From: a bacterium | GTDB taxonomy: Bacteria; Electryoneota; Electryoneia; Electryoneales; Electryoneaceae | Reading direction: 5' to 3' | Length of the DNA stretch: 64,000 bases | Assembly: GCA_020444265.1 (NCBI GenBank) | Contig: JAHLLH010000001.1 | Coordinates: forward strand, 186,001-250,000 | Shown here: positions 2,819 through 30,593 of the stretch, piece after piece | Position numbering within the stretch: position 1 is the stretch's first letter | Layout of the letters: every line of letters begins with the position of its first letter | The notes under the pieces: model-generated | Databases searched by the model: none | What the model was told of the DNA's origin: nothing | Seen by the model: only the letters and a program-made list of their open reading frames with translations | Translations under genes and position numbers: made by a program

Positions 2819-4621
2819 TCAGTCGAGCAACTCCAAACTGAACTTCTCCTGGTCGCTGAATGTATGGGGATAAACCAGCTCACGCGTGTACCGTCCATCC
2901 ACCTTTTTCAGTTTAGGAAAGACCAGACCACGGCCAAGTGGGAAATCCGCTGTCCGCTCCTCAATCTCCGCTTTCAGCGGATCAGTGAAGACAAGTTCTT
3001 CACGCAGCGCGGTCGCCGCAGCTTTGTCACCGTGTGCCTTGATGTCCGCAACGCGATTCAGCATGGCACTGACGGCTTTGTGTGCCTTCTTATGATGGAC
3101 AACAAAACGCGTTTTTCCTTCCTCCTCAACACGCGAGATGATGCCTTCCTTCTCAAAGGCATGGAACATGCCGTTCCGCGCTTTATTGTGTGCCTGCACC
3201 GGGTCAAATTTCATGCTTGTCACCATGGTAACCAGCATGCCATCGTAGCAGGCGTGCGCCATCTTCTCGTCAATAATTTTATCGTCCACCAGCTTCTTCA
3301 CTGCGAAGAGCCCAAAGAGCTCGGCACGGCTTTCCTCGAGGAAGGAGTACTCTTCCTCGATGTAATTCGAGGGCTGTCCCTCACTCGCCTCGGGTGCCTG
3401 ACGGCCTGTGGTGTGGCCAATTTCATGCAGGGCGCTGTGGAGCTGGTTCGCTTCAAAAAGAACGTCCTTCACTTTCTCGAATTCGTCATGAGTGAGGAAC
3501 TCTTCGGCTGCAAGGTTACCGGACACTCCGTGCACAGCTTTACCGGTATTCATATAGACCATGTTCACCGTGCCAACCTCTTTGCCGACCCATTCATCGT
3601 TCGGCAGGCTTTGTGCGATGGTGGTAAATGGACCAGTCACCTGGTCGCCCGCCCAGCTCACCACATCAACAAACTTGAGCTTTGGTAATGTTTCTGGGCG
3701 AATGCTCTCTTTTTTGAAGGTCCAAGGAGCGTTCTTTTCCCAATACTCAACACGCTCAACGATTGCATTCAGAAGCTTTTCAGCCTCTTCATTACGCAGG
3801 TAAACCCCACCAATGGCCGAACCATGGAAGTTCTTCAGATTGTCGATGTACACTTCGAGGGCTGTCGAGATGACAATATCGATCGGGGAATTGTGACGCA
3901 CCCAGGTGTAGTCCGCAATGCGTCTCGCTTCTTCAAACCCGGTCTGCATTTCGATGATTTTTGCGTCGAGGTAGAGGTGCAGCCCTGTATCCTTTGTCAA
4001 GTCACGTGCTGCCTCGAGGTGCTTTATCGCCTGGGCAATCGTCTCTGAGTATCGGTCCTCATTGTAGACGACATAGAGGTCCCCCTCAGCGTCACGGATG
4101 ACACTCGAGTTCGGGATCTTGATGGCATCCCCGATTTTCTCGATCTCTTCTTCGCTGATATCCTGCGGGTAGAAGTTGGCGGTGTCCGGAGTGGACAGAC
4201 CGCTAGTCATCAGCTCCAGCAGCTCGGCCCGTATCTCATCATCTCCCTCTGGAAGGTGTTTCAGCAATTCTTCCAGACGAGATTTCTCAAGGCCAGCAAG
4301 CACATTTTTGCGCGGTAGCAGTGCCCAGGGGCTGTTCTGCAGGTTCAGCATGGTCAAGTAGCTACGCAGCAACGTTTGCTCATGCTTCTCAGCCAGCGGG
4401 AGCAACTGATCAACCAACTCGATCAGGAGAGCGGTACGTGGGTCAAACTGATCACGGAAGATGGGGTTCATCCACTCGGCTGCATCCACAAGATGGCCGA
4501 TGATCTGAATCTCATCCTCGCTCAAACCATCCAGGTTAACCTCGACATGGGTGATAGCAGCGCGACGTGGTGGTTCGCCATCCTGGCGATACGGGATGTA
4601 CTGTATGGATGATGCGGACAC
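2819..4621 (-). CDS. Dipeptidyl-peptidase III-like zinc metallopeptidase (family M49) with pentapeptide HEXXH motif
   Basis: 600 residues from a GTG at 4621, chosen because GGAGGA lies five bases upstream; the frame continues to 4702 but without a ribosome site. The protein has H399-E-I-G-H403 as zinc motif and EESRAEL at 429-435, which matches the second M49 motif (EExRAE) that supplies the third zinc ligand, probably Glu430. Classical DPP III uses the hexapeptide HEXXGH (HELLGH); here it is the canonical five-residue form, as reported for the Caldithrix abyssi enzyme. Family knowledge says it removes dipeptides from the N-terminus of peptides in the cytoplasm; no signal peptide is visible, which agrees. 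The gene is divergent from the efflux operon. Confidence 0.88.
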   Translation of the reverse strand: MSASSIQYIPYRQDGEPPRRAAITHVEVNLDGLSEDEIQIIGHLVDAAEWMNPIFRDQFDPRTALLIELVDQLLPLAEKHEQTLLRSYLTMLNLQNSPWALLPRKNVLAGLEKSRLEELLKHLPEGDDEIRAELLELMTSGLSTPDTANFYPQDISEEEIEKIGDAIKIPNSSVIRDAEGDLYVVYNEDRYSETIAQAIKHLEAARDLTKDTGLHLYLDAKIIEMQTGFEEARRIADYTWVRHNSPIDIVISTALEVYIDNLKNFHGSAIGGVYLRNEEAEKLLNAIVERVEYWEKNAPWTFKKESIRPETLPKLKFVDVVSWAGDQVTGPFTTIAQSLPNDEWVGKEVGTVNMVYMNTGKAVHGVSGNLAAEEFLTHDEFEKVKDVLFEANQLHSALHEIGHTTGRQAPEASEGQPSNYIEEEYSFLEESRAELFGLFAVKKLVDDKIIDEKMAHACYDGMLVTMVTSMKFDPVQAHNKARNGMFHAFEKEGIISRVEEEGKTRFVVHHKKAHKAVSAMLNRVADIKAHGDKAAATALREELVFTDPLKAEIEERTADFPLGRGLVFPKLKKVDGRYTRELVYPHTFSDQEKFSLELLD

Positions 4622-4802
4622 GGTTTCCTCCGGGCAGAATTTTGATGGGGTCAAGGGCGGTAAGGTAGAAGGGGAGGACAACCGGGCGCAAACCTTCCTC
4701 AACCCGTCTCTCGTATCAGGAATGTCGTAACGATTTCAATCATACTACCGTCAAAATGGAGGAGCAGGGAGCCAGAATCCGCGACTTTTTCCGTCCGGAA
4801 GG

Positions 4803-4841
4803 TGTTCATTATCGTACACCCCATGTTGTTTTTTCGTACAC
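4803..4841. promoter_or_regulatory. Candidate upstream activator sites for the efflux operon regulator
   Basis: TCGTACAC occurs at 4812-4819 and again at 4834-4841, 22 bp apart (two helical turns). The first copy can be read as a 6-4-6 inverted repeat, TGTTCA-TTAT-CGTACA. The same half site forms a perfect palindrome at 15582, just after the kinase gene of the same operon. The position, 55 to 93 bp upstream of the sigma-54 element at 4895, suits an NtrC-type activator. The assignment is inference. Confidence 0.4.
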
Positions 4842-4894
4842 TCTCCCTTGTAGCGCATATTGTTAGATATTTGGTATTACGAGATTTAGCAAAC

Positions 4895-4910
4895 AGGCAC
4901 GTGGTTCGCA
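4895..4910 (+). promoter_or_regulatory. Sigma-54 (-24/-12) promoter of the efflux operon
   Basis: AGGCACG-TGGT-TCGCA matches the consensus TGGCACG-N4-TTGCA at 10 of 12 fixed positions, with the invariant GG (4896-4897) and GC (4908-4909) exactly 10 bases apart. Transcription would start near 4921, which leaves the ATG at 4953 as first usable start. The last two genes of the operon encode an NtrC-type activator and its kinase. Confidence 0.6.
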
Positions 4911-4952
4911 CAACAGGTGCCCGAACCGGATGACGAAGCAGGCAAAAGGATT

Positions 4953-6206
4953 ATGGATCGAGTAATCGAGAAAAAGCGGTGGAACCGGAAGCGTATTCTC
5001 TACATCTCCGGCGGTGCTGTCCTTGTTCTTTTTGTGGTATACAACCTCTTTTTCGCCGACCACAGTTCGCGGTTGAACGTTCGAGCGGAACGAATCACCA
5101 TCTCTGAGGTGAGTGAAGGGCTGTTTCTCGATTACATCCCTGCCAATGGTACGGTGCTGCCCCTCCAGACGGTTTACCTCGATGCGGTGGAAGGCGGACA
5201 GGTGGACACGCTGTTTGTTGAGGAAGGTGCATTCCTGGAGGTTGGCGACCCGATCATCCGGCTTTCGAACACCAGCCTGCTGCTCGACATCATGTATCGG
5301 GAGGCTGAACAGGTTCAGCAGATCAACAACCTGCAGAATACTCGCCTCGCGATGGAGCAGAATTCACTGACTCTGCGTGGCCAGTTGCTCGATCTCGACA
5401 ACCAGATTTCCGAAGCAAAACGTCAATACGAGCAGGCGCAGCAGTTGCATGAGCAGAATCTGATCAGCGACATGGATTATGCTCGCTCTCGCGATACCTA
5501 CAATTATCTCGTGAAGCGGCGCAAACTGACCCTCGATACGCACCAGACGGACTCCTTGTTCAGAAGCGTGCAGATTAGTCAGCTTGAGGCGAACGTTGAT
5601 CGGATGCGCAGCAACCTGGGTATCGTAAAGCAACGTCTTGACCGATTGACCATTCGTGCTCCGATTCCCGGGCAGCTTACCCAGTTGAATGGTGAGGTCG
5701 GACAGTCGATGTCGTCCGGCCAGCGTATCGGCCAGATTGACCGTCTGGACGGCTTTAAAGTGCGTGCGGGGATCGACGAGCATTACATCGCTCGCATTAC
5801 CCCTGGTCTGACTGGACAGTTCGAGTTCAACAACCGGACCTACGACCTGATGATCGACAAGGTCTATCCGCAGGTAACCAATGGCCGGTTTGAAGTGGAC
5901 ATGGTCTTCTCGGGGGATACACCGAATGGGATCCGACGCGGTCAGACCGTCCGGATTCGTCTCGAACTGGGCGGATCAAACGAGGCTATCCTGCTACCAG
6001 TAGGCGGATTCTACCAGAGCACAGGTGGACAGTGGGTCTATGTCGTCAGTGAGGATGGCAGCTTCGCGACCAAGCGCGATATCCAGATCGGTCGACAGAA
6101 TCCGCGTGACTACGAAGTCCTGTCTGGTCTTGAACCGGGCGAGCAGGTGATTACATCGTCCTACGACACATTTGGTGATGTCGATAAACTGATCTTGAAA
6201 CAATAG
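4953..6206 (+). CDS. Periplasmic adaptor (membrane fusion) protein, HlyD/MacA type
   Basis: 417 residues. It has an N-terminal membrane anchor (about residues 14-34), a split biotinyl-lipoyl hairpin (NGTVLPLQTVYLDAVEGG, and later RAPIPGQLTQLNGEVGQ), a coiled-coil hairpin rich in Gln and Leu between them (about 110-210) and beta-barrel and membrane-proximal domains with EAILLPVGGF and LEPGEQVITS. Such proteins bridge an inner-membrane ABC pump to an outer-membrane channel. A GTG at 4917 could extend it by 12 codons, but it has no ribosome site and lies upstream of the predicted sigma-54 transcription start; the ATG at 4953 follows AAAGGA. It is the first gene of a co-directional cassette running to 15571. 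No TolC-like gene is present here. Confidence 0.88.
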   Translation: MDRVIEKKRWNRKRILYISGGAVLVLFVVYNLFFADHSSRLNVRAERITISEVSEGLFLDYIPANGTVLPLQTVYLDAVEGGQVDTLFVEEGAFLEVGDPIIRLSNTSLLLDIMYREAEQVQQINNLQNTRLAMEQNSLTLRGQLLDLDNQISEAKRQYEQAQQLHEQNLISDMDYARSRDTYNYLVKRRKLTLDTHQTDSLFRSVQISQLEANVDRMRSNLGIVKQRLDRLTIRAPIPGQLTQLNGEVGQSMSSGQRIGQIDRLDGFKVRAGIDEHYIARITPGLTGQFEFNNRTYDLMIDKVYPQVTNGRFEVDMVFSGDTPNGIRRGQTVRIRLELGGSNEAILLPVGGFYQSTGGQWVYVVSEDGSFATKRDIQIGRQNPRDYEVLSGLEPGEQVITSSYDTFGDVDKLILKQ

Positions 6207-6323: not shown

Positions 6324-7013
6324 ATGATCAAGACAGTCAACCTGAAGAAGGTCTATACAACGGAAGAAGTCGAGACCACCGCACTGAACAACGTCAGCAT
6401 TGAAATCAATGAAGGCGAATTTGTAGCGATCATGGGCCCTTCCGGCTGTGGCAAGTCAACCCTTCTGAACCTGCTTGGCCTGTTGGACAATCCGACCGAT
6501 GGAGAATACCACTTTGTCGGGAACGAGGTCTCACGGTTCAGTGAGCGTCAGCGCGCCAACCTGCGTAAAGCGAACATCGGCTTTGTCTTCCAGAGCTTCA
6601 ACCTGATTGACGAACTCACCGTTTACGAAAACGTCGAACTGCCCTTGCTCTACCTGGGTATTCCGACGACAGAGCGGAAAGCTCGTGTTGGTGAAGCGCT
6701 CGAGAAGATGCAGATCATGCACCGGAAGAATCACTTCCCGCAGCAGCTTTCCGGCGGTCAGCAGCAGCGTGTGGCGGTTGCACGAGCTGTCGTTGCCAAG
6801 CCGAAAGTGATCCTGGCCGATGAGCCGACCGGTAACCTTGACTCGAGCCATGGTGACGAGGTGATGAACCTGTTGACCCAGCTCAACGAAGAGGGGACCA
6901 CCATCGTGATGGTCACTCACTCGCCTGCGTACGCCGAGTTCGCCCACCGCATTATCCACCTGTTCGACGGTCATGTCGTCACGGAAAACGTGATGGAACG
7001 TCCGCTCGTGTAA
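6324..7013 (+). CDS. ABC transporter ATP-binding protein (MacB/LolD type)
   Basis: 229 residues, single nucleotide-binding domain. Walker [10 protein letters not shown] (39-47), Q-loop region [10 protein letters not shown], signature LSGGQQQR, Walker [14 protein letters not shown] and the switch histidine in VMVTHS are all intact. It belongs to the group that works with FtsX-fold permeases to move lipoproteins or antibiotics out of the inner membrane by a mechanical stroke. It follows the adaptor and precedes the FtsX permease at 7149. A GAGAGGATGCGGG stretch precedes the ATG. Confidence 0.92.
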
Positions 7014-7148: not shown

Positions 7149-9524
7149 ATGTTGTTCAACGAGCTACGTGTCGCCTTCCGTCAAATGAGGCGAAACCTTT
7201 CTTTCAGCCTGATTAATGTCTTCGGACTTTCTGTCGGCATTGCCGCGACCATCCTTATCGCACTTTACGCCGAACACCAGCTGACTTGGGATCAGTTTCA
7301 CCCCAAGTCGGATGATACCTACCTCCTGCTGAAAGAACGCCATCTCCCTGCTGGGACACAGGTATTGGATGACACGTGGGTGCCGATGGGCCCTGCGATT
7401 ACCGAGGATTACCCGGAAGTGAAGTCCTTTGTCCGGGTGTTCGAATCGGACGAGTGGTTGGAGCAGGCAGGTAGCCGCAGCTCAGTTCATGTTCACATTG
7501 TTGATCCTTCCTTCCTGGATGTCTTCCACTATCCGCTCGTCCTGGGGAATCCCGATGTCGCCCTTTCGACTCCGAACAGTATCGTCATCAGTGAGAGTTT
7601 TGCTGCGACCCATTTCGGCGACAGCAATCCCCTCGGCCAGGAATTGACCATTGACGGTGATGTTTATGAGGTGAAGGGTGTCTTGAAGGATGCTCCATCC
7701 AACAGCGTAATGCGGCCTGAGGTGCTTGTCCCCTTCGAAGCAGCCATCTCGCCGGATGATGAAGAGGGGAACAACGACTGGGGTAGCTCGTTCCTCTGGA
7801 CATTCCTCGAGCTTGAGGAGGGGACCGATTCGGATGCATTCGAGGCTCAGCTTCCGGCCTTTGTCGAGAAGATATTTGGGACGGAAGGGCCGAATGGGGT
7901 CAACAGCCTCTATATCCGGCTGCTTCCCCTTCCAGATGTACATAATTACTACGCAGAAGACCGTCAGCTCGCCTGGACACTGCTCGCAGTCGGCTTTGTC
8001 ATTCTGCTGATCGCGTCAATCAACTTTATGAACCTTTCGACGGCTGCCTCGCTGAAACGATCCCGCGAGGTGGGGGTGAGGAAGGTCCTTGGCGCAGTGC
8101 AACCTCAACTGATTCGTCAATTCCTGGTGGAAGCAGTCCTCACATCGTTGATTGCCCTGGTCTTTGCCATTGCATTGGTCGAAATCATTCGCCCGGTGAT
8201 GAACCGTGGCCTGGATCTTCACCTCGGTGCAGGTCTGCTGACTTCGTTCGTTTCTGTAGGGCTGCTAGTGAGCTTCGGGACGATGATCGGCCTGCTGGCG
8301 GGGCTTTATCCGGCATTTTACATGTCCGCGTTCCGCCCCCTGCGCACCATCAAAGGACAACTGGGACGTTCACCTTCCTCCGCACGGTTCCGGACTGTGC
8401 TGGTCGTCCTGCAATTTTCCCTCTCGATCACCCTGATCTCAGGGATGATGATTGTCTACAATCAGATCCAGTTCATGAAGACTCAGAACCTCAACTTCAA
8501 TGCGGATCAGGTGTTGGCGATTCGCTACGATATGGAGATTTTTGGGGATCGTGAGCAGGCGGTCTCAACCCTGACCACCACGCGTGATCGCATCCTCAAC
8601 CTTGCAGGCGTGCAATCGGCGAGTCTTTCCAGTCTTGTGCCCAGCGAGGGTGCCAATTCCAATGTCTTCGTCCGTCCTGAGGGGCGTGACCCGAAAGATC
8701 CCCTCCGTATGAAGATTGTCGCAGCCGATGAAGCATTTTTTGAGACGTACGGCATTGAGATGGTCGAAGGACGATCTTTCCGGCCGAATCCTTCCGAAGG
8801 CGATGCTGTGCTCATCCTGAATGAAACAGCGCGCAACAACATCGGCTGGAAGAGTGCGGCAGGCAAGATGGTGAACTCGATCGGGGAACGCGAGGTAATC
8901 GGTGTAGTCAAAGACTACCACTACACATCGCTCGATTCCGAAGTCCGTCCGATCATCCATATTTATCGCGGTGCCAACAGCGGATTTAATCGCTATTTGT
9001 CCGTCCGTCTTGGTGGGGCGGATATCCAAGCCACCATGCACCAGATCGAGGCGATCTGGCACGAAGTAGATCCGGCTGGAAGCTTTGACTACTTCTTCGT
9101 TGATGAGGCATTTGACCACCTCTATCGCGGGCAGGAACAAGTCGGTGTTGTGGCTGGCATTTTCGCGTTGATCGGTGTGGTCATTGCCAGTCTTGGCCTG
9201 CTCGGACTCGTCTCCTATGCCATCATCACACGGACTCGTGAAATCGGTGTGCGTAAAGTCCTTGGCGCGACTGCACCGCAGATCTTGGTACTGGTGTCAC
9301 GAGACCATCTGAAACCGGTGTTGATCGCCAACCTGATAGCCTGGCCATTGGCCTGGTATTTCGGGGTTCGCTGGCTTGAAAACTATCCGTACCAATTCGA
9401 TCTGTCGCCGTTCAGCCTGCTTCTGCCTTCGCTGGCGGCTCTGGCGATCGCTTTTGGAACCATATCCTTCCATGCCATTCGCGCATCACGGTCCAACCCG
9501 GCAGAAGCACTGCGGCATGAATGA
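7149..9524 (+). CDS. FtsX-fold ABC permease (MacB-like)
   Basis: 791 residues. The ATG at 7149 has a perfect GGAGG seven bases ahead. The protein has two FtsX modules: a first membrane segment (NVFGLSVGIAATILIALYA), a large periplasmic domain of about 230 residues, three membrane segments with the REVGVRKVLGA motif, then a second such unit ending with REIGVRKVLGA and four-helix organisation. This doubled layout, common in Bacteroidota-like phyla, contrasts with the single-unit MacB. It pairs with the ATPase at 6324 and the adaptor at 4953. Confidence 0.9.
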   Translation: MLFNELRVAFRQMRRNLSFSLINVFGLSVGIAATILIALYAEHQLTWDQFHPKSDDTYLLLKERHLPAGTQVLDDTWVPMGPAITEDYPEVKSFVRVFESDEWLEQAGSRSSVHVHIVDPSFLDVFHYPLVLGNPDVALSTPNSIVISESFAATHFGDSNPLGQELTIDGDVYEVKGVLKDAPSNSVMRPEVLVPFEAAISPDDEEGNNDWGSSFLWTFLELEEGTDSDAFEAQLPAFVEKIFGTEGPNGVNSLYIRLLPLPDVHNYYAEDRQLAWTLLAVGFVILLIASINFMNLSTAASLKRSREVGVRKVLGAVQPQLIRQFLVEAVLTSLIALVFAIALVEIIRPVMNRGLDLHLGAGLLTSFVSVGLLVSFGTMIGLLAGLYPAFYMSAFRPLRTIKGQLGRSPSSARFRTVLVVLQFSLSITLISGMMIVYNQIQFMKTQNLNFNADQVLAIRYDMEIFGDREQAVSTLTTTRDRILNLAGVQSASLSSLVPSEGANSNVFVRPEGRDPKDPLRMKIVAADEAFFETYGIEMVEGRSFRPNPSEGDAVLILNETARNNIGWKSAAGKMVNSIGEREVIGVVKDYHYTSLDSEVRPIIHIYRGANSGFNRYLSVRLGGADIQATMHQIEAIWHEVDPAGSFDYFFVDEAFDHLYRGQEQVGVVAGIFALIGVVIASLGLLGLVSYAIITRTREIGVRKVLGATAPQILVLVSRDHLKPVLIANLIAWPLAWYFGVRWLENYPYQFDLSPFSLLLPSLAALAIAFGTISFHAIRASRSNPAEALRHE

Positions 9525-9636: not shown

Positions 9637-10329
9637 ATGATTGAGCTGCAAAACATCTTCAAGTATTACACGAACGGTTTTCTCAAAACCTACGTTTTAC
9701 AAGACCTTTCGCTCGATATCGAGGAAGGTGAATTCGTGTCGGTGATGGGTCCCTCCGGTGCTGGTAAATCGACCCTGCTGCACATTCTGGGCATGATCGA
9801 CACACCGAATGAGGGTGAGTATGTCTTCTTCGGCGAGCACGTGCACAAGATGAATGAACGCCGTCGCACCGAGATGCATCGCGAGCACATCGGCTTCGTT
9901 TTTCAGAGCTACCACCTGATTGATGACCTCACCGTCTACGAGAACCTTGAAACTCCGCTCCTCTATAAAAAGATCAAGGGCGGGGAGCGGAAAAGCCTGG
10001 TTAACGACATGCTGGACCGTTTTCAGATGGTCGCGAAGAAGGATCTCTTCCCATCCCAACTTTCCGGCGGGCAGCAGCAGCTAGTCGGTATCGCACGGGC
10101 GTTGATTACCAAGCCCAAAGTGATCCTGGCCGATGAGCCGACCGGCAACCTCAACAGTAAGCAGAGCGCGGAAATCATGGATTTGCTGAGCAAGCTGAAC
10201 GAGGAGGAGGGGACCACGATCATCCAGGTGACTCATTCCGAGACCAATGCTGAGTACGGATCGAGGATCATTGACCTGCTTGATGGACGAGTGGTACGAG
10301 AGGGACAGGAAGAGGTGACTGCGGGCTGA
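9637..10329 (+). CDS. ABC transporter ATP-binding protein, second of the operon
   Basis: 230 residues, paralogue of the ATPase at 6324. Walker [10 protein letters not shown] and Walker [12 protein letters not shown] are intact, and the switch His is in IQVTHS. Two changes are visible: the residues after the signature read [13 protein letters not shown] instead of the usual QQQRVAIAR, and the D-loop is NLNS rather than NLDS, which loses the Asp that crosses the dimer interface. These may alter coupling or suit a heterodimer. AGGAG lies upstream of the ATG. It presumably serves the permease at 10368. Confidence 0.9.
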
Positions 10330-10367: not shown

Positions 10368-12788
10368 ATGCTGAAAAACTATATCCGAACGGCGATTCGA
10401 GCGCTGATCCGTCAGCGAGTTTACTCCGCGATTAACCTGATCGGGTTGGCGGTGTCAATGGCGGTGGTGATGCTGGTTATCCTCTTCATTAAGCAAGAGA
10501 TGACCTATGATCATTTCCACCAGAACATTGCGTCGATCTACCAGGTCAACCATCACGAATCCCCGGATCATCGTGACCCCTTCGGCTCGTCGTCCACTCC
10601 GCTTGGATTAGCCCCATCATTGAAAGCTGTTTATCCTGACGTGATTGCATCATCTCGATTCATGAACAACCCAACTGTATTGACGATTGGGGAAGAGTCG
10701 ATACTTCAGGACGTCCAGTACGTTGATCCTGACTTTTTCCAGATGTTCAGCTTTCCAACCGTCCGAGGCACCTCGGCAGGTTTTGACAGGGATCCGACTT
10801 CCCTCGCGTTAACGGAATCAATGGCGGATCGTCTCTTCGGTACGACGGATGTAATCGGGAAAACGCTCACCCTCTCCATCGCCAGTCTCGAAAAGGAGAT
10901 GATGGTTCGTGCGCTACTTGCTGATCCGCCTGAAGCATCCAGCCTGCAAATCGCCGTTGTGGCACCCTTTGAACTGGTCTACGAAGTCCTCCCACGCGAG
11001 TATGACGACTATTGGCAGTCCATTTACACTCAATCTTTCGTACAACTCGCTTCAGGTGTTCCGATCTCCACCGTTGAAGCAAAAATGCAGGAATTTTACG
11101 ATGTGCACAATTTTGACGAACGCTTCGGCAAGGGAGTCGTGCATTTCTCCTTCCTGCCGCTGAGTAAGGTGCATCTCTATCCGACCTTTGCCGATGGTCC
11201 GCTGAAAACCAGCAACCCGATGTACAGCCTGCTGCTCGGGATGATCGCGCTGTTCCTCCTGATTGTCGCAGTGGTGAACTACACGACACTCGCAATTGGG
11301 CGGTCGGTCAGCAGGGTTCGTGAAGTCGGTGTCCGGAAGGTACTGGGGGCGCATGCTGGACAAGTTCGGCGGCAATTCCTCGCAGAATCGGTTCTGTTGA
11401 CCCTCTTCGCACTGCCCGTTGCAGTCGTCCTCGCAGAAATACTGCTACCACAGTTCAACCAATTCGTGCACCGCGACCTTCAGCTCGGTTTCGATCCGTT
11501 ACTGCTCGGTCTGCTAGCCTTGCTGGTGGCCATTATCGGGGTGGTTTCAGGTGGGTATCCCGCACTTGTGATGGCCCGCTTGCGACCCTCACAGGTTCTC
11601 AAGGGACATGCCGGCTTGCGCAGCCGTACCCTGCTAATGAAGAGTCTTGTTGTCTTGCAGTTCACCTGTGCGGTCGTCCTGCTGATCGGTACGCTGCTGA
11701 TTGGACGGCAGTTGTCTTACCTGTTAACCACCGATCTCGGTTTCCGCGGCGATCAAGTGGTGTCAATCTTCCTCCCCGATGTTTCTGACGAGTCAATGGG
11801 AGATTTTGTCGACCGTTTCCAGGCAAGGTTGCAACAGGAACCGCTTATTCTTTCCACCAGTTGGTCCTCCAATGCTTTCGGCCTGCCCTGGGCAGAATTC
11901 GGCTACTTCGATAAAACGGACAATTACCAGCAGATGCGTGTCAACATGGTGTCCGACTCGTATATCAACACCATGGGCATGGAGATTGTCGAGGGACGAG
12001 GATTTGCCCCGGACCGCCCCTCCGATAAAAGCGAAGCGGTGGTGGTCAACGAGGCATTTGTGCAGAAGCAGGGATGGGACCAGCCTATCGGTAAGTCCCT
12101 GCCCGGTTCGTTTGGAACGCATGAAATTATTGGTGTGGTGAAAAACTTCAACTTTGCCTCCCTGCACAATAAAGTTGAGCCGTTGATGCTCCTTCAATCG
12201 ACGACAAACTTCCGTGAGGGAGTTTCGGATGTAGACAACTTCCGTGGAATTCCGTCCTATCTCCAGATTCGCTTATCTGCTCAGGATATCCCGGTCGCAC
12301 TCGATCGAGTGAAGGCCTCCTGGTCGGAAATTACGAAGGATCAGGCATTTCACTATGTATTCATTGATGACATCATCGCCAGCCAGTATGAGGATGAACG
12401 AGCCTTTCACCGGGTGATTGTTGCCTCGACTCTGCTGACCCTCTTTGTCGCTGCGCTCGGCCTGTTTGGGCTGTCGTCCCTGATTGTAGAGCAGCGTAGC
12501 AAGGAAATTGGGGTGCGTAAGGTACTGGGCGCATCGGTGCCGGACATCCTGACCCTGCTTTCCCGTGAGTTTGGCATCCTGGTGCTGATTGCAAATGTGA
12601 TTGCATGGCCGTTGTCCTGGTTCGCCATTTCAAAGTGGCTTGGTACTTTTGCCTTCCATGCCGGGATACAACCACTGCTGTTCCTCGCGGTTGCTATAGG
12701 GATGATTCTGTTCACTGCCTTGACCGTAACATTGCAAGCCTGGCGGACTGCAAACCGAAACCCGGTGACAACACTGCGGTACGAGTAG
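10368..12788 (+). CDS. FtsX-fold ABC permease, second of the operon
   Basis: 806 residues with the same double FtsX architecture as the permease at 7149: N-terminal membrane helix (AINLIGLAVSMAVVMLVILF), periplasmic domain, three helices around SRVREVGVRKVLGAH, then a second periplasmic domain and helices around SKEIGVRKVLGAS. The sequences have diverged well, so this is an old duplication of an ATPase-permease pair. A GAGGT site precedes the ATG. The two pairs could form separate exporters sharing one adaptor, or a mixed complex. Confidence 0.9.
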   Translation: MLKNYIRTAIRALIRQRVYSAINLIGLAVSMAVVMLVILFIKQEMTYDHFHQNIASIYQVNHHESPDHRDPFGSSSTPLGLAPSLKAVYPDVIASSRFMNNPTVLTIGEESILQDVQYVDPDFFQMFSFPTVRGTSAGFDRDPTSLALTESMADRLFGTTDVIGKTLTLSIASLEKEMMVRALLADPPEASSLQIAVVAPFELVYEVLPREYDDYWQSIYTQSFVQLASGVPISTVEAKMQEFYDVHNFDERFGKGVVHFSFLPLSKVHLYPTFADGPLKTSNPMYSLLLGMIALFLLIVAVVNYTTLAIGRSVSRVREVGVRKVLGAHAGQVRRQFLAESVLLTLFALPVAVVLAEILLPQFNQFVHRDLQLGFDPLLLGLLALLVAIIGVVSGGYPALVMARLRPSQVLKGHAGLRSRTLLMKSLVVLQFTCAVVLLIGTLLIGRQLSYLLTTDLGFRGDQVVSIFLPDVSDESMGDFVDRFQARLQQEPLILSTSWSSNAFGLPWAEFGYFDKTDNYQQMRVNMVSDSYINTMGMEIVEGRGFAPDRPSDKSEAVVVNEAFVQKQGWDQPIGKSLPGSFGTHEIIGVVKNFNFASLHNKVEPLMLLQSTTNFREGVSDVDNFRGIPSYLQIRLSAQDIPVALDRVKASWSEITKDQAFHYVFIDDIIASQYEDERAFHRVIVASTLLTLFVAALGLFGLSSLIVEQRSKEIGVRKVLGASVPDILTLLSREFGILVLIANVIAWPLSWFAISKWLGTFAFHAGIQPLLFLAVAIGMILFTALTVTLQAWRTANRNPVTTLRYE

Positions 12789-12858: not shown

Positions 12859-14241
12859 GTGCTGAACGAAAAAATCGGCAAAGTGCTTGTGGTGGATGAC
12901 GATGAGGATATCCTCACCGCCTTGCGTTTGCTGTTGAAGCCTCATGTCGAGTTTGTCCATACAGAACGTAACCCGGACAACATTCCGGCACGAATGCGTG
13001 AGGTCGATTACCAGGTGATTCTGCTGGATATGAATTTCAGCAAAGATGCTACAACGGGCAAGGAAGGGTTTACCTGGCTGGACCGGATCCTCAGCATTGA
13101 TCCTTCAGCGGTAGTTATCCTGATTACTGCCTATGGTGATATCGATACCGCGGTCAGAGCGATCAAGGAAGGGGCGATTGATTTCGTTCTCAAACCCTGG
13201 CAGAACGAAAAGCTGTTGGCGACCGTCAATGCTGCGCTTCGTTTGCATGCCAGCCGTGCTGAAGTCGCTCAGCTAAAGGATCGCCAAAAGGTTCTCAGCG
13301 CGGACCTGGAACAGAATTTCCAGGAGATCATCGGCCATTCAGAACCGATGAAACGAGTTTTTGAAACGATCGAAAAGGTCGCCAAGACAGATGCCAACGT
13401 CCTTATTCTCGGTGAAAATGGCACAGGGAAAGAGTTGATTGCTCGCGCGATCCATCGGAACAGCCTGCGATCCAACGAGGTTTTCATCAGTGTGGACATG
13501 GGCGCGATCAGCGATTCCATTTTCGAAAGCGAGATGTTCGGTCATGTAAGGGGGGCCTATACGGATGCCAAGTCGGATCGCCCGGGACGGTTTGAAATTG
13601 CATCGAAAGGAAGCCTCTTCCTCGATGAAATCGGTAACCTTTCGATGGCGGTTCAAGCCAAACTGTTGACCACCCTCGAGACTCGTAGGGTGATCCGGAT
13701 GGGGTCGAACCAGCCACGCAACTTCGATATCCGTCTGATCTGCGCGACCAATATGAGTATCCACGAGATGGTCGCAAAACGTGAATTCCGCCAGGACCTG
13801 CTCTATCGCATTAATACTGTAGAAATCCAGCTCCCACCACTTCGCGACCGCCGTGAAGACATCCCGCTGCTTGTCCAGTACTACCTCGACCACTATACGA
13901 AGAAGTATAAAAAGGGCGGCCTCTCTGTTGGGCAGGGCGCACTGCGCAAGCTGGAACGGTACAATTGGCCCGGTAATGTGCGTGAGCTGAAGCATGCCCT
14001 GGAACGAGCGGTGATCATGACCGAGAGCAAGGTGCTACAGCCTGGAGATTTCTTCTTCTCGATGCATGAGGAGGGGGGAAGCGAAGGGATCGAACTCGAT
14101 TCCTTCAACCTGGAAGAGGTGGAGCGTTCAGTGATCCTCAAGGCCATTCGCAAGCATACGGGTAACATTTCACGTGCGGCAGATGAACTCGGCCTGACAC
14201 GTACCTCGCTTTACCGGCGGATCGAAAAGTATGGCCTATAA
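12859..14241 (+). CDS. Sigma-54-dependent response regulator, NtrC family
   Basis: 460 residues from a GTG at 12859 with GGAGGAGAT before it. The receiver domain has the acidic pocket D13-D15 and phosphoacceptor Asp57 (LLDMN). The AAA+ domain has Walker A GENGTGKE (from about 185), and the sigma-54 contact loop reads GAYTDA (232-237) in place of GAFTGA. A Fis-type helix-turn-helix ends the protein (GNISRAADELGLTRTSLYRR). The loop change keeps the aromatic and Thr that touch sigma-54 and is of a type I recall from related phyla, so activity is likely. It probably activates the promoter at 4895, giving an autoregulated operon. Confidence 0.9.
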   Translation: MLNEKIGKVLVVDDDEDILTALRLLLKPHVEFVHTERNPDNIPARMREVDYQVILLDMNFSKDATTGKEGFTWLDRILSIDPSAVVILITAYGDIDTAVRAIKEGAIDFVLKPWQNEKLLATVNAALRLHASRAEVAQLKDRQKVLSADLEQNFQEIIGHSEPMKRVFETIEKVAKTDANVLILGENGTGKELIARAIHRNSLRSNEVFISVDMGAISDSIFESEMFGHVRGAYTDAKSDRPGRFEIASKGSLFLDEIGNLSMAVQAKLLTTLETRRVIRMGSNQPRNFDIRLICATNMSIHEMVAKREFRQDLLYRINTVEIQLPPLRDRREDIPLLVQYYLDHYTKKYKKGGLSVGQGALRKLERYNWPGNVRELKHALERAVIMTESKVLQPGDFFFSMHEEGGSEGIELDSFNLEEVERSVILKAIRKHTGNISRAADELGLTRTSLYRRIEKYGL

Positions 14242-15571
14242 CCGTTTTCGTATCGGGGTCGTCCTCAGGGTTGGGGTGATTGTCTCGACCCTCTTTCTGA
14301 TCCTGGTCCTTTACCAGAACACCGATTACCTGATGACGATCGGGATTCTGGCCCTGATCGCGATCTACCAGGTTTTCTCACTGGTTCGCTTTGTTGAACG
14401 GACGGAACGGGACTTGACCCGGTTCCTGCAAGCGATTCAGTATGAGGACTTTTTCGAAACCTTTGGGACGAGGGCTGGACCGAGTGCGAAACGGTTGCAT
14501 GCGGAATTCACACGCATTATGCAGGATTTTCGCAACGTACGTTCGCAGCGTGAAGAACAGTTCCTCTACCTGCAAACCATCTTGCAGCACATCGGGATTG
14601 TTTTACTCTCCTATGATCAGGAGGGCGAAATTGAGCTGGTCAACCCGGCAGCACGTCGTCTCTTCAAAGTGAACCGGATCAAACACATCCGTCATTTGGA
14701 GCGTTTCAGTCCGGCATTGGTGAAGGCCTTGCAGTCCATCCAGCCGGGGGAAAAGAAGACCGTCCGGGTGACCGACGAGAACGAACTTCTACTCTTGTCG
14801 GTTCATGCCACCGAGTTTCATCGTGGAACACGCCGACTGACGCTAGCGACCATCCAGAACATCCGGAGCGAACTGGAAGAGAAAGAGCTGGAAGCTTGGC
14901 AGAACCTGATTCGTGTTCTGACCCATGAGATTCGTAACTCGATCACCCCGATCACCTCACTGGCCAGTACGACCGTGGATCTTCTCGCACAAGTCCATCC
15001 GGCAACAGATGAGGATCGAGAACAGATTGAGGATGTCAACCTTGCGATCGGCACAATCCAAAATCGTGGCAAAGGGCTGCTCAATTTTGTCGAAGCCTTC
15101 CGCAGCCTTTACAAGGTGCCGAAACCGAATTTCACTCAGCTCTCTGTTCAGGACTTCTTCCAGCATCTCCAAACGTTTTTCGATGTTTCGATGGAACAGC
15201 GCTCGATTTGCTTGAGCTTCGAGTGTAGCCCGGATACCTTGCAGGTAACCGTGGATCCCGATCTGATCGAACAGGTCCTGATTAATCTGATTACCAATGC
15301 GATGCAGGCACTTGACGGGATGGAGGGGGGACGGATCGAGGTGAGTGCCAACATCGACACGCGAGGCCGGGCACGCATCCAGGTGGTGGATAATGGTCCA
15401 GGGATTCCAGAAGAGGAGATTGACCGGGTCTTCATCCCGTTCTATACGACAAAATCGGATGGGACCGGCATTGGACTTAGTCTCTCGAGGCAGATATTGC
15501 GCTTGCACAAAGGATCGATCAGCGTCCATTCGATACCAAGTGAGCGGACTGTGTTTACGCTGAACTTCTGA
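14231..15571 (+). CDS. Sensor histidine kinase partner of the NtrC-type regulator
   Basis: 446 residues; the start overlaps the end of the regulator gene by 11 bases, showing translational coupling. Two membrane helices (about residues 9-50) flank almost no periplasmic loop, so the signal is probably sensed in the membrane. A PAS-like segment follows (about 110-200), then the phosphorylation box with His232 (LTHEIRNSITPI), N box LINLITNAMQAL, and G boxes VVDNGPGIP and GTGIGLSLS. It should phosphorylate Asp57 of the regulator at 12859. It is the last gene of the operon. Confidence 0.92.
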   Translation: MAYNRFRIGVVLRVGVIVSTLFLILVLYQNTDYLMTIGILALIAIYQVFSLVRFVERTERDLTRFLQAIQYEDFFETFGTRAGPSAKRLHAEFTRIMQDFRNVRSQREEQFLYLQTILQHIGIVLLSYDQEGEIELVNPAARRLFKVNRIKHIRHLERFSPALVKALQSIQPGEKKTVRVTDENELLLLSVHATEFHRGTRRLTLATIQNIRSELEEKELEAWQNLIRVLTHEIRNSITPITSLASTTVDLLAQVHPATDEDREQIEDVNLAIGTIQNRGKGLLNFVEAFRSLYKVPKPNFTQLSVQDFFQHLQTFFDVSMEQRSICLSFECSPDTLQVTVDPDLIEQVLINLITNAMQALDGMEGGRIEVSANIDTRGRARIQVVDNGPGIPEEEIDRVFIPFYTTKSDGTGIGLSLSRQILRLHKGSISVHSIPSERTVFTLNF

Positions 15572-15581
15572 CCGTATCTGC

Positions 15582-15597
15582 TGTACGGATTCGTACA
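15582..15597. promoter_or_regulatory. Perfect 16-bp palindrome, possible regulator site
   Basis: TGTACG-GATT-CGTACA lies ten bases after the kinase stop codon. Its half site CGTACA is the one repeated upstream of the operon at 4813 and 4835, so it may be a further binding site of the NtrC-type regulator, acting on the small gene at 15837. Confidence 0.35.
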
Positions 15598-15836
15598 AGA
15601 GCTGTTGCAAAACCGAACGGCGATTCGGATTGTATAAGTTGTAAGATGTTGTTTTTCCGATGCCAGAAAAAGAGGCACGGAGTTGGTAGTAGCTCGGGTG
15701 GGCTACCTGCTCATTCGCGCAGGAGGGCGGTGGTGTCTGGATTCGGCTCCGACCCGTCGTTGTGGGCACCGCCGCCCGTTTTTCTCTCGTGGGAGCAGGC
15801 TGTACAGTTCCATTTGGAACCCTGCGGGGAGGCGTT

Positions 15837-16112
15837 ATGGCGATTACCATACAATTGCCGATCATGGATGCGAAGGATACCGTTGAAATTGAGGTAAGGG
15901 TCAACGGGAAACGTCGCACCTACAAGTACCGAGTTGAGTTGCTCGACTGGGACGACTGCGAGGAACCGCCGGAGATCCGGATTCAATGTATCCGGGACAA
16001 GATAGACTCCGTAGGTGAGGACTGGCAGCTTGTCTCCATCGGTGCGCCCAACGAGCACAACGTTCCTATCATGTTCCGTCACAGGGACGATAAGGCACCT
16101 TCCGACAATTGA
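15837..16112 (+). CDS. Small hypothetical protein
   Basis: 91 residues. The ATG at 15837 has GGGGAGG four bases upstream, so the longer open frame before it is not used. The sequence starts with amphipathic strands (MAITIQLPIMDAKDTVEIEV), then charged residues, a Cys (WDDC) and a C-terminal basic segment. No signal peptide or membrane helix. I do not recognise the family. It is separated from the efflux operon by 265 bases that hold the palindrome at 15582, and ends in a bidirectional terminator. Confidence 0.7.
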   Translation: MAITIQLPIMDAKDTVEIEVRVNGKRRTYKYRVELLDWDDCEEPPEIRIQCIRDKIDSVGEDWQLVSIGAPNEHNVPIMFRHRDDKAPSDN

Positions 16113-28211: not shown

Positions 28212-30593
28212 ATGATCAAGCTGACGCGATCCGCTCTCATCGCCTGCCTCCTGCTGACCCTGGTTCTGCCAGAAGGATTGTTCGCCGACACCATGAACGC
28301 ACGCGCTCTGGGTGAAGTTCAAGGTTGGGTGACTCAGGCTGATGGGACACCCATAGCAGGTGCTGCGGTTCACCTCGTTGGTACATCGTTCGGCGGACAG
28401 ACCGACCTGAGTGGCAGCTTTCTACTCGCACGCATTCTAGCCGGTAGTTGGACAGTGGAGGTGACTCACCTCGGTTATGAACGAAACGTTCTGGCAAATG
28501 TTCGAATCCGGGCAGAACAATCAACCAATCTCGGTAGTATTCAGCTTCAGCCAGCCGTCCACAGCCTCGATCCTGCCACCTGGACAGTCCGTCGCTCCCA
28601 TCTGCAACAGGATGATATCCTCGAGCCATCCAGTTCAGTCGATCTGGCCTCTATTCGTCTTGTGCAACCAGCGAGCAGTGCTGAGGTTCTCCGTGAACAG
28701 CCCGGAATTCAGATTCAGAAGACCAGTCACGGTGGTGGGCACGCCATCGTACGCGGGATGACCTCGAATCGGGTCCTGCTGCTGACCGATGGCATCCGGA
28801 TGAACAATTCAACCTACCGTCTCGGCAACCATCCCTACCTGACCATGATTGACCCGAACGGTCTGGAGAGCATCGACCTCGTGCGCGGACCCGGTTCCGT
28901 TTTGCATGGGAGCGATGCGCTGGGAGGCGCAGTCAACATGATTACCCGGTCGGCGACTTTTGCTGATTCCGGGGTGACTGCGGGTTTCGAGCTGTTGGGT
29001 CGAGTGGCGACTGCGGATGATGAAAGGACTCGTCACGTAACCTTCAGCGTTGCTTCCCGTGTGGCGAGCCTCTTCCTCAGCACGGGATTATCCCAGTTTG
29101 GAGATCTTCGCCGTGGGGAAAACGGGGAAACAGTCATCGATCCTGTGCCGCCCGTTCGGCAGACGCCGACCGGGTTCGATGCAACTCATCTGGTTGCAAA
29201 CCTTAGAGTCCGTTTGACGCCTCTGCTGGAACTGCACCTGGGCCACCAACGGACCAATCGTCCCGAAGTACCGCGTTATGACAAGTACCTCAATGGTGGG
29301 GATTTTCGTTGGCTCTACACTCCGCAACGACGTGAACTGACCTATCTCCGCTTCCGCTTGACCACTGGCGGGACCTGGTTGAAAGCGATAGAGGCGACCG
29401 CATCCCTGCACCACCAGGCGGAAGGGCGTTCCACTCAGGACACGCCCGAGGATCTGCGTACGAACGAGTTCGATGAGGTCCACACCCTCGGTTTCAGCCT
29501 CGTAAGCGATTGGCAGTGGCGTAAGCATCAAGTTGTCGCCGGATTCGACAGCTACCAGGATGCCGTCCAAAGTAGCCGAATCCTTATTGATTTGGCGGGA
29601 CTCCGTTCAGTAGACAACCGGGGTCGTTTCCCTGATGATGCTCGCTATACCTCCAACGGCCTCTTCGTACAGGATCGGTACGAGTTGCAGGATCATCTCG
29701 TTCTGCTGGGCGGTATGCGTTACAGCCAGTTTTCGACACACTTTGATACTCCTGGCGTGGGAATGGTGTTCGAGGATGTCCATTTGAGCTTCCAGGCATT
29801 CACTCTCAGCGGGGGTGTACGGTACGATGTTTCTGGTCCGCTCGCACTCAGCAGCAGCTTATCCCAGGGCTTCCGTGCGCCGAATCTTGGCGATATGGCA
29901 AAGTTGGGTGAGTCGAAAGGTGCCACTTTCGAAGTTCCCAACCGGGACTTGGAACCGGAACGAGTTCTCACTTGGGATGTTGGTCTCGATGTCGAATCCT
30001 GGCTGCTGAATGCACGTCTGCACGGCTACCTCACCCGAATTGGCGGAATCATGAGCAGCGTCCCCACGACCTGGCAGGGAGATGATCAGGTTATTATCGG
30101 GGACGATGTCTACGATGTCCGTCGCAAGGAAAACGTGGGCGAGGGCATCATTCGCGGCGTTGAATGGCAGGGGGTGATCCTGCCGCGTGAGCGTGTCCAG
30201 CTTCGGGCCATCGCGACATGGACCTGGGGGCAGAACACCACCCTCGATGAACCGTTCGATGGTATTCCGCCCTTTATCGGAACAGTTGGATTGCAGTTCA
30301 CATCTGATCCGGGCAGATGGACCATTGAGCCTTACTTGCGATTCGCCGGCAAACAGGACCGCCTGTCGAGCGACGACAAGGATGATGATCGCATTCCCAT
30401 TGGCGGAACTCCCGGCTGGATCACCTGGAACCTGCGCGCACAAACTCCAGAATGGCACGGAGTTCGAGTGACGGTGGCATTGCAGAATCTCACTGATCTG
30501 AATTACCGTGTGCATGCGTCCGGGATCAACGCACCAGGTCGTCACCTGGTACTGACAATGGGATGGCGTCCCGAGGTTGTTCGGATCCAGTAG
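28212..30593 (+). CDS. TonB-dependent outer-membrane receptor with carboxypeptidase-regulatory-like N-domain
   Basis: 793 residues. A signal peptide (SALIACLLLTLVLPEGLFA) is followed by a beta-sandwich of the carboxypeptidase regulatory type (GWVTQADGTPIAGAAVHLVG, about 40-110). The plug domain has LREQPGIQIQKTSHGGGHAIVRGM, then LLLTDGIRMN and DLVRGPGSVLHGSDALGG, and a 22-strand barrel is expected to the end, which finishes in an aromatic-rich strand. It should import a siderophore, cobalamin or similar ligand with energy from TonB; none of the TonB genes are here. A TTG at 28194 is an alternative start. The ribosome site is weak. Confidence 0.92.
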   Translation: MIKLTRSALIACLLLTLVLPEGLFADTMNARALGEVQGWVTQADGTPIAGAAVHLVGTSFGGQTDLSGSFLLARILAGSWTVEVTHLGYERNVLANVRIRAEQSTNLGSIQLQPAVHSLDPATWTVRRSHLQQDDILEPSSSVDLASIRLVQPASSAEVLREQPGIQIQKTSHGGGHAIVRGMTSNRVLLLTDGIRMNNSTYRLGNHPYLTMIDPNGLESIDLVRGPGSVLHGSDALGGAVNMITRSATFADSGVTAGFELLGRVATADDERTRHVTFSVASRVASLFLSTGLSQFGDLRRGENGETVIDPVPPVRQTPTGFDATHLVANLRVRLTPLLELHLGHQRTNRPEVPRYDKYLNGGDFRWLYTPQRRELTYLRFRLTTGGTWLKAIEATASLHHQAEGRSTQDTPEDLRTNEFDEVHTLGFSLVSDWQWRKHQVVAGFDSYQDAVQSSRILIDLAGLRSVDNRGRFPDDARYTSNGLFVQDRYELQDHLVLLGGMRYSQFSTHFDTPGVGMVFEDVHLSFQAFTLSGGVRYDVSGPLALSSSLSQGFRAPNLGDMAKLGESKGATFEVPNRDLEPERVLTWDVGLDVESWLLNARLHGYLTRIGGIMSSVPTTWQGDDQVIIGDDVYDVRRKENVGEGIIRGVEWQGVILPRERVQLRAIATWTWGQNTTLDEPFDGIPPFIGTVGLQFTSDPGRWTIEPYLRFAGKQDRLSSDDKDDDRIPIGGTPGWITWNLRAQTPEWHGVRVTVALQNLTDLNYRVHASGINAPGRHLVLTMGWRPEVVRIQ

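Follow-up and report, generated by a model that had tools for sequence, protein, structure and literature searches.

A predicted sigma-54 enhancer and promoter before an exporter operon that encodes its own NtrC-type regulator

The exporter operon and its two-component pair

The stretch of DNA analysed here (the window) comprises 64,000 nucleotides of a contig from a bacterium of the Electryoneaceae (JAHLLH010000001.1, positions 186,001 to 250,000). It carries seven consecutive plus-strand genes in the order given by a preliminary description of the sequence: adaptor, ATPase, permease, ATPase, permease, NtrC-type regulator and kinase, the last two closing the operon. The first gene (4953..6206) encodes a HlyD/MacA-type periplasmic adaptor, whose nearest named family is DarC, with a score under its cut-off. 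It is followed by a first ABC ATPase (6324..7013), nearest to the DarD/MacB type, a first duplicated permease of the MacB_PCD/FtsX type (7149..9524), a second ABC ATPase (9637..10329) and a second such permease (10368..12788). All parts of the broad superfamily of MacAB-type tripartite systems, a HlyD-type adaptor, an ABC ATPase and a MacB_PCD/FtsX permease, are present; a TolC-type outer-membrane partner is not encoded in the operon.

MacAB and DarBCD share with the operon a HlyD-type adaptor, a MacB-type ATPase and a MacB_PCD/FtsX permease, but the window operon departs from both in its duplicated permeases of ~800 aa, its separate ATPases and its linked NtrC-type pair. None of the DarBCD cut-offs of NCBIfam is reached (DarC 209 of 450; DarD 279 and 252 of 375; DarB 120 and 94 of 700), and the adaptor of the operon likewise misses the MacA cut-off. 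The permeases resemble ADOP (TIGR03434), a duplicated MacB/FtsX permease of ~800 aa, to which they align over the full model with scores below the cut-off (344 and 286 vs 622); unlike ADOP, they appear to be tied to a sigma-54 regulon.

The regulator (12859..14241, plus strand) consists of a receiver domain with D57, a Sigma54_activat domain and a Fis-type helix-turn-helix with the helix LTRTSLYRRIEKYGL; PF00072, PF00158 and PF02954 all score above their cut-offs. Its L1 loop, the sigma-54 contact, reads GAYTDA rather than GAFTGA; among the homologs read, GAFTDA is usual and GAFTGA occurs in four. The histidine kinase (14231..15571, plus strand) has two N-terminal membrane helices with almost no periplasmic loop between them and is devoid of an evident periplasmic sensor domain. 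By simple hydropathy, two membrane helices are found in 46 of the 55 kinases examined, the window kinase included. This architecture is reminiscent of the BceRS-BceAB detoxification modules, whose kinase likewise has two membrane helices joined by a tiny loop, is linked to an FtsX-type exporter and takes its signal from the partner transporter. While the window kinase is, like the Bce kinases, of the intramembrane type, its regulator is NtrC-type and works with sigma-54, not OmpR-type as in Bce, and the window system has an adaptor. ZraSR and GlrKR of enterobacteria are envelope-related two-component pairs whose NtrC-type regulator acts via sigma-54; the window regulator also scores against the ZraR and GlrR models, below their cut-offs, and the circuit differs from both in its target genes and its DNA sites. 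The gene for sigma-54 itself, on whose presence the preliminary description had made its reading depend, is found in the genome (rpoN at G000:C9:64424; PF04552, E 3.1e-51, 492-aa frame).

Predicted promoter and paired dyads upstream of the adaptor gene

The region before the adaptor gene contains a -24/-12 box, AGGCACG-TGGT-TCGCA (4895..4910, plus strand), which is recognised from its sequence and from its counterparts in relatives. The exact spacing described earlier is borne out, with GG at 4896-4897, ten bases and GC at 4908-4909, as is the distance of 43 bases between the box and the adaptor ATG at 4953, which is preceded by AAAGGA; the box shows two departures from consensus. Counting +1 from the -12 C places the predicted transcription start at 4921 on the plus strand, and an alternative GTG start of the adaptor at 4917 lies upstream of this position. 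No sigma-70-like site was found in 4600-5000. Two TCGTACAC repeats, reported as 22 bp apart, are indeed located at 4812 and 4834, but in our reading these copies are the right halves of 16-bp dyads at 4803-4818 and 4825-4840, for which we derive the consensus TGTNCG-N4-CGNACA with 10 consensus positions. The distal dyad on the plus strand, TGTTCA-TTAT-CGTACA (4803..4818), agrees with the consensus at 9/10 positions and lies 92 bp upstream of the -24 box. The proximal one, GTTGTT-TTTT-CGTACA (4825..4840, plus strand), follows 22 bp after it and combines a conserved right half with a degenerate left half, an arrangement also seen in many relatives (GTTTCG-N4-CGNACA). Upstream of the enhancer lies a divergent gene for an M49-family peptidase (window 2819-4654, minus strand), toward which no box in phase was found.

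Taken singly, these elements are weak. TCGTACAC occurs three times where 0.89 copies are expected, a count that is reached in 8 of 100 shuffles, and the 64 kb hold, on both strands, 30 sites equal to or better than the -24/-12 box, itself included. When we combined them and accepted only boxes with a 9/10 or better dyad 55-115 bp upstream, none but those at 4895 and 15673 were left in the 64 kb, besides one overlapping register at 4906. Genome-wide, perfect dyads show no excess over a control pattern (4 sites vs 5 control), so that their abundance is no evidence and the case rests on their position. One of the perfect dyads, at C16:166453, looks fortuitous, being adjoined by other genes and having no convincing -24/-12 box in phase.

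The comparison of this intergenic region among relatives, which had been proposed as a check, provides strong evidence. The adaptor occurs at 80 loci in Bacteroidota, Ignavibacteria and KSB1, its best named relative coming from a KSB1 bacterium, and in further genomes, one of which belongs to the same family and shows 66% identity. Of the 80 loci, 59 have a dyad scoring 9/10 or better in the 400 bp before the adaptor, as opposed to 26 of 3044 control windows (0.9%), although the raw count overstates independence because related loci overlap in ancestry. A -24/-12 score of at least 10 is reached upstream of the adaptor in 66% of relatives vs 6.5% of controls; the thresholds and the box score were chosen with the data in view, and the exact percentages are descriptive. 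In most dyad-bearing promoters of relatives the dyad is paired with another at a spacing of 20-22 bp, and counting of spaced trinucleotide pairs de novo, with no prior motif, recovered pieces of the dyad, such as TGT-N9-TAC and CGTACA. The site is not universal, since a recognisable dyad is absent from the scanned intergenic region of 20 of the 62 relatives with a divergent regulator. The TRTSLYRR helix (LTRTSLYRR) is unique to the window regulator among the 23 activator-type proteins of the genome that were read. Relatives with a different helix, TRQTLYNK (n=5), are all without the dyad site; as some relatives with a TRTALYRR helix lack it too, the linkage of helix and site is imperfect.

The distances between dyad and box in relatives are not spread evenly, but cluster at 68-71, 78-82, 88-92 and 99-105 bp, that is, in steps of ~11 bp, a pattern that a requirement for the activator to face the polymerase would produce. 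For 14 lineages dereplicated at 70% identity, this phasing yields a Rayleigh p of about 0.0016-0.003 for a period of 10.9-11.0 and of 0.03 for a period of 10.5, whereas under stricter dereplication it is not significant (p 0.14; 60% identity, period 10.5).

Judged from the DNA and its relatives, the region very probably comprises a sigma-54 enhancer and promoter whose activator is the operon's own NtrC-type regulator. The kinase would phosphorylate the neighbouring regulator, which in its phosphorylated form would most likely bind both tandem dyads (4803-4818 and 4825-4840) from the same side of the helix and remodel the RNA polymerase-sigma-54 complex held at 4895-4910. Transcription would then start near 4921 and proceed through the adaptor, both ATPases, both permeases, the regulator and the kinase; as the latter two genes lie at its 3' end, activation would also increase the supply of regulator and kinase, giving positive feedback. 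Further targets of this regulator would most likely be the small gene at 15837 and five or more permease genes scattered over the genome. In all 62 of the 80 loci where a regulator homolog is visible, its gene is divergent from the adaptor, while in the window and in G005, a genome of the same family, it follows the permease genes and shares their orientation. Direct self-activation therefore seems to have arisen locally, by rearrangement of a module that is older and divergent, which would make it a case of a two-component circuit turned self-activating simply by altering the order of its genes. The switch itself is conserved in several bacterial phyla, and the regulon is probably old and, in the open-access literature, largely undescribed.

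It is conceivable that the dyads instead serve some other DNA-binding protein, such as a repressor, as its operators, that a housekeeping promoter drives the operon and that the -24/-12 match arose by chance. The dyad is after all a plain inverted repeat of the kind bound by many regulators, and the box alone is common in the window. However, the dyads are conserved as pairs 20-22 bp apart and stand in ~11-bp steps from a box across lineages; the box itself is conserved in two thirds of relatives, the gene of an NtrC-type regulator is divergent in 62 of 80 loci, and a sigma-70-like site is absent from 4600-5000, all of which makes this explanation highly improbable. A different question is what the circuit responds to. 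Envelope stress and efflux were guesses of the preliminary description, and the circuit could exist as outlined with an exporter devoted to housekeeping or to moving lipoproteins and a two-component pair that responds to growth or starvation. A stress signal is not encoded in the sequence, the kinase lacks an evident periplasmic sensor domain and the ATPases resemble LolD too; the nearest named adaptors and permeases, on the other hand, are peptide or macrolide exporters (DarC/DarB, MacA), and we regard a housekeeping or starvation role as possible, though less likely than not. The interpretation offered in the preliminary description thus stands for the sigma-54 promoter, the activator sites and the self-encoded NtrC-type activator, backed by conservation, phasing, rpoN and other promoters, but not in treating the palindrome behind the kinase gene as a mere echo of the half site.

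The second dyad pair and the small gene downstream of the kinase

This palindrome, TGTACG-GATT-CGTACA, is present at 15582-15597 (no strand assigned), ten bases after the kinase gene, and is a perfect activator dyad. It is followed by a partner dyad, GTTGCA-AAAC-CGAACG (15604..15619, plus strand), 22 bp further on, and by a candidate -24/-12 box, AGGCACG-GAGT-TGGTA (15673..15688, plus strand), which is weak in that GT replaces GC, but which lies in phase, 91 bp from the dyad. Downstream, at 15837..16112 on the plus strand, is a small, unannotated gene for a conserved protein of 91 aa with homologs in the same exporter loci. The protein has no match in Pfam or NCBIfam, and its predicted fold (pLDDT 78) no convincing relative in the PDB. 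It was detected in 4 of 118 genomes, all four with this adaptor family, a count that may miss remote homologs below threshold. In G005, a homolog with 62% identity follows the kinase gene, from which one intervening gene separates it, and is preceded by a dyad pair and the box TGGCATGCATCTGGCA. Small-gene homologs with the same promoter layout also occur in exporter loci of Bacteroidota, in six scored cases, and others are without it. We flag this unannotated small protein family as a candidate component of the system.

From its layout, the palindrome is best read as a second enhancer, serving a predicted promoter of the small gene, a reading that we consider probable. Alternatively, it might belong to the operon enhancer as a remote or auxiliary element, or be a perfect dyad by accident, with the small gene relying on another promoter. 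The weakness of the box at 15673, with its GT at -12, and the long leader to 15837 would fit with this, as would several small-gene homologs without a dyad directly upstream (L176, L192, L195, L251 and L252). G005, moreover, has a perfect dyad 28 bp before its regulator gene, inside the operon and with no clear box (G005:C44:112946-112961; L241:14946). However, a dyad pair with a good box at 71-82 bp precedes the small gene in G005, L117, L118, L119, L122, L123 and L126, and the window site has both its partner dyad 22 bp on and an in-phase box at 91 bp, which leaves an auxiliary or accidental site a rather doubtful account next to that of a second enhancer.

Stand-alone permeases and the proposed wider regulon

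Some 20 permeases of ~800 aa are encoded in the genome, most of them with no ATPase gene in the vicinity, and many of the ADOP-like permease genes here are likewise found without one. We sampled the regulon in the window's own genome via pattern matches and permease genes, and scanned upstream of the permeases with gene starts set by homology. Five permease genes elsewhere in this genome (L103, L104, L106, L107 and L110), all of the ~800-aa kind and with no nearby ATPase, combine a dyad of 9/10 or better with a downstream box, at dyad-to-box distances of 69, 81, 92, 81 and 99 bp. The background of such dyad-plus-box combinations is 1.7% of 300-bp windows in these regions, true sites included. 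Dyad and box are found before permeases in other genomes as well (L272, L278, L281, L283, L284 and L287). Three further stand-alone permeases of the window's genome, L096, L100 and L108, have a -24/-12 box without a recognisable dyad, and another activator may serve them.

The shared, specific enhancer ties duplicated MacB/FtsX permeases that lack an ATPase to one operon with two ATPases and an adaptor, and so offers a concrete, testable answer to the question of which ATPase drives them. The window operon contributes 2 of the genome's eight best MacB-type ATPases. Sharing of ATPases is suggested because the permeases and the operon appear to be co-regulated; as it stands, it is a tentative proposal. 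Equally speculative is the broader picture of one NtrC-type pair running a regulon that crosses phyla, in which stand-alone permeases would borrow the ATPases and the adaptor of the operon, the cytosolic-looking small protein would be an accessory common to the system, and the intramembrane-type kinase might receive its signal from the transporter itself.

Sigma-54 control of such permeases has been predicted before. A survey of 2025 proposes, by prediction, -24/-12 promoters ahead of FtsX-like ABC permeases (COG0577), assigns the sigma-54-controlled ones to Bacteroidia, Opitutia and gamma-Proteobacteria and, in its passages on them, calls this connection the first such link (PMC12316311). These passages name neither an activator for the permeases nor an operon of adaptor, ATPase and two-component genes, nor a small gene; 'UAS' and 'upstream activ' do not occur in the survey text, and no enhancer site is described there (PMC12316311). 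Our analysis puts a name to a likely activator and a DNA site behind this predicted control.

Several related arrangements were encountered along the way. A second exporter operon of the same genome, with its own kinase and an NtrC-type regulator that is 43% identical, carries at L112:6589-6673 (G000:C11, about 531589-531673) a variant dyad, TGTCCA-ATTG-TGGACA, with TGGCACGCCATGTGTA 69 bp on, and is possibly a paralogous self-activating circuit. In G005:C44 (L241 and L242, joined coordinates 28501-28607), a single dyad, which the two may share, sits between two divergent boxes, of which one points to the adaptor operon and the other to a permease gene. In seven Pontibacter genomes, finally, dyad and box are located before tandem genes whose products are peptides of about 50-67 aa with signal-peptide-like starts (L226, L269, L270, L271, L274, L282 and L285). 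Most of these peptides end near NLLPVVEVVAP, and their C-terminal NLLP[VE]VEVVAP-like motif resembles a TonB box; they may be substrates, signals or something else.
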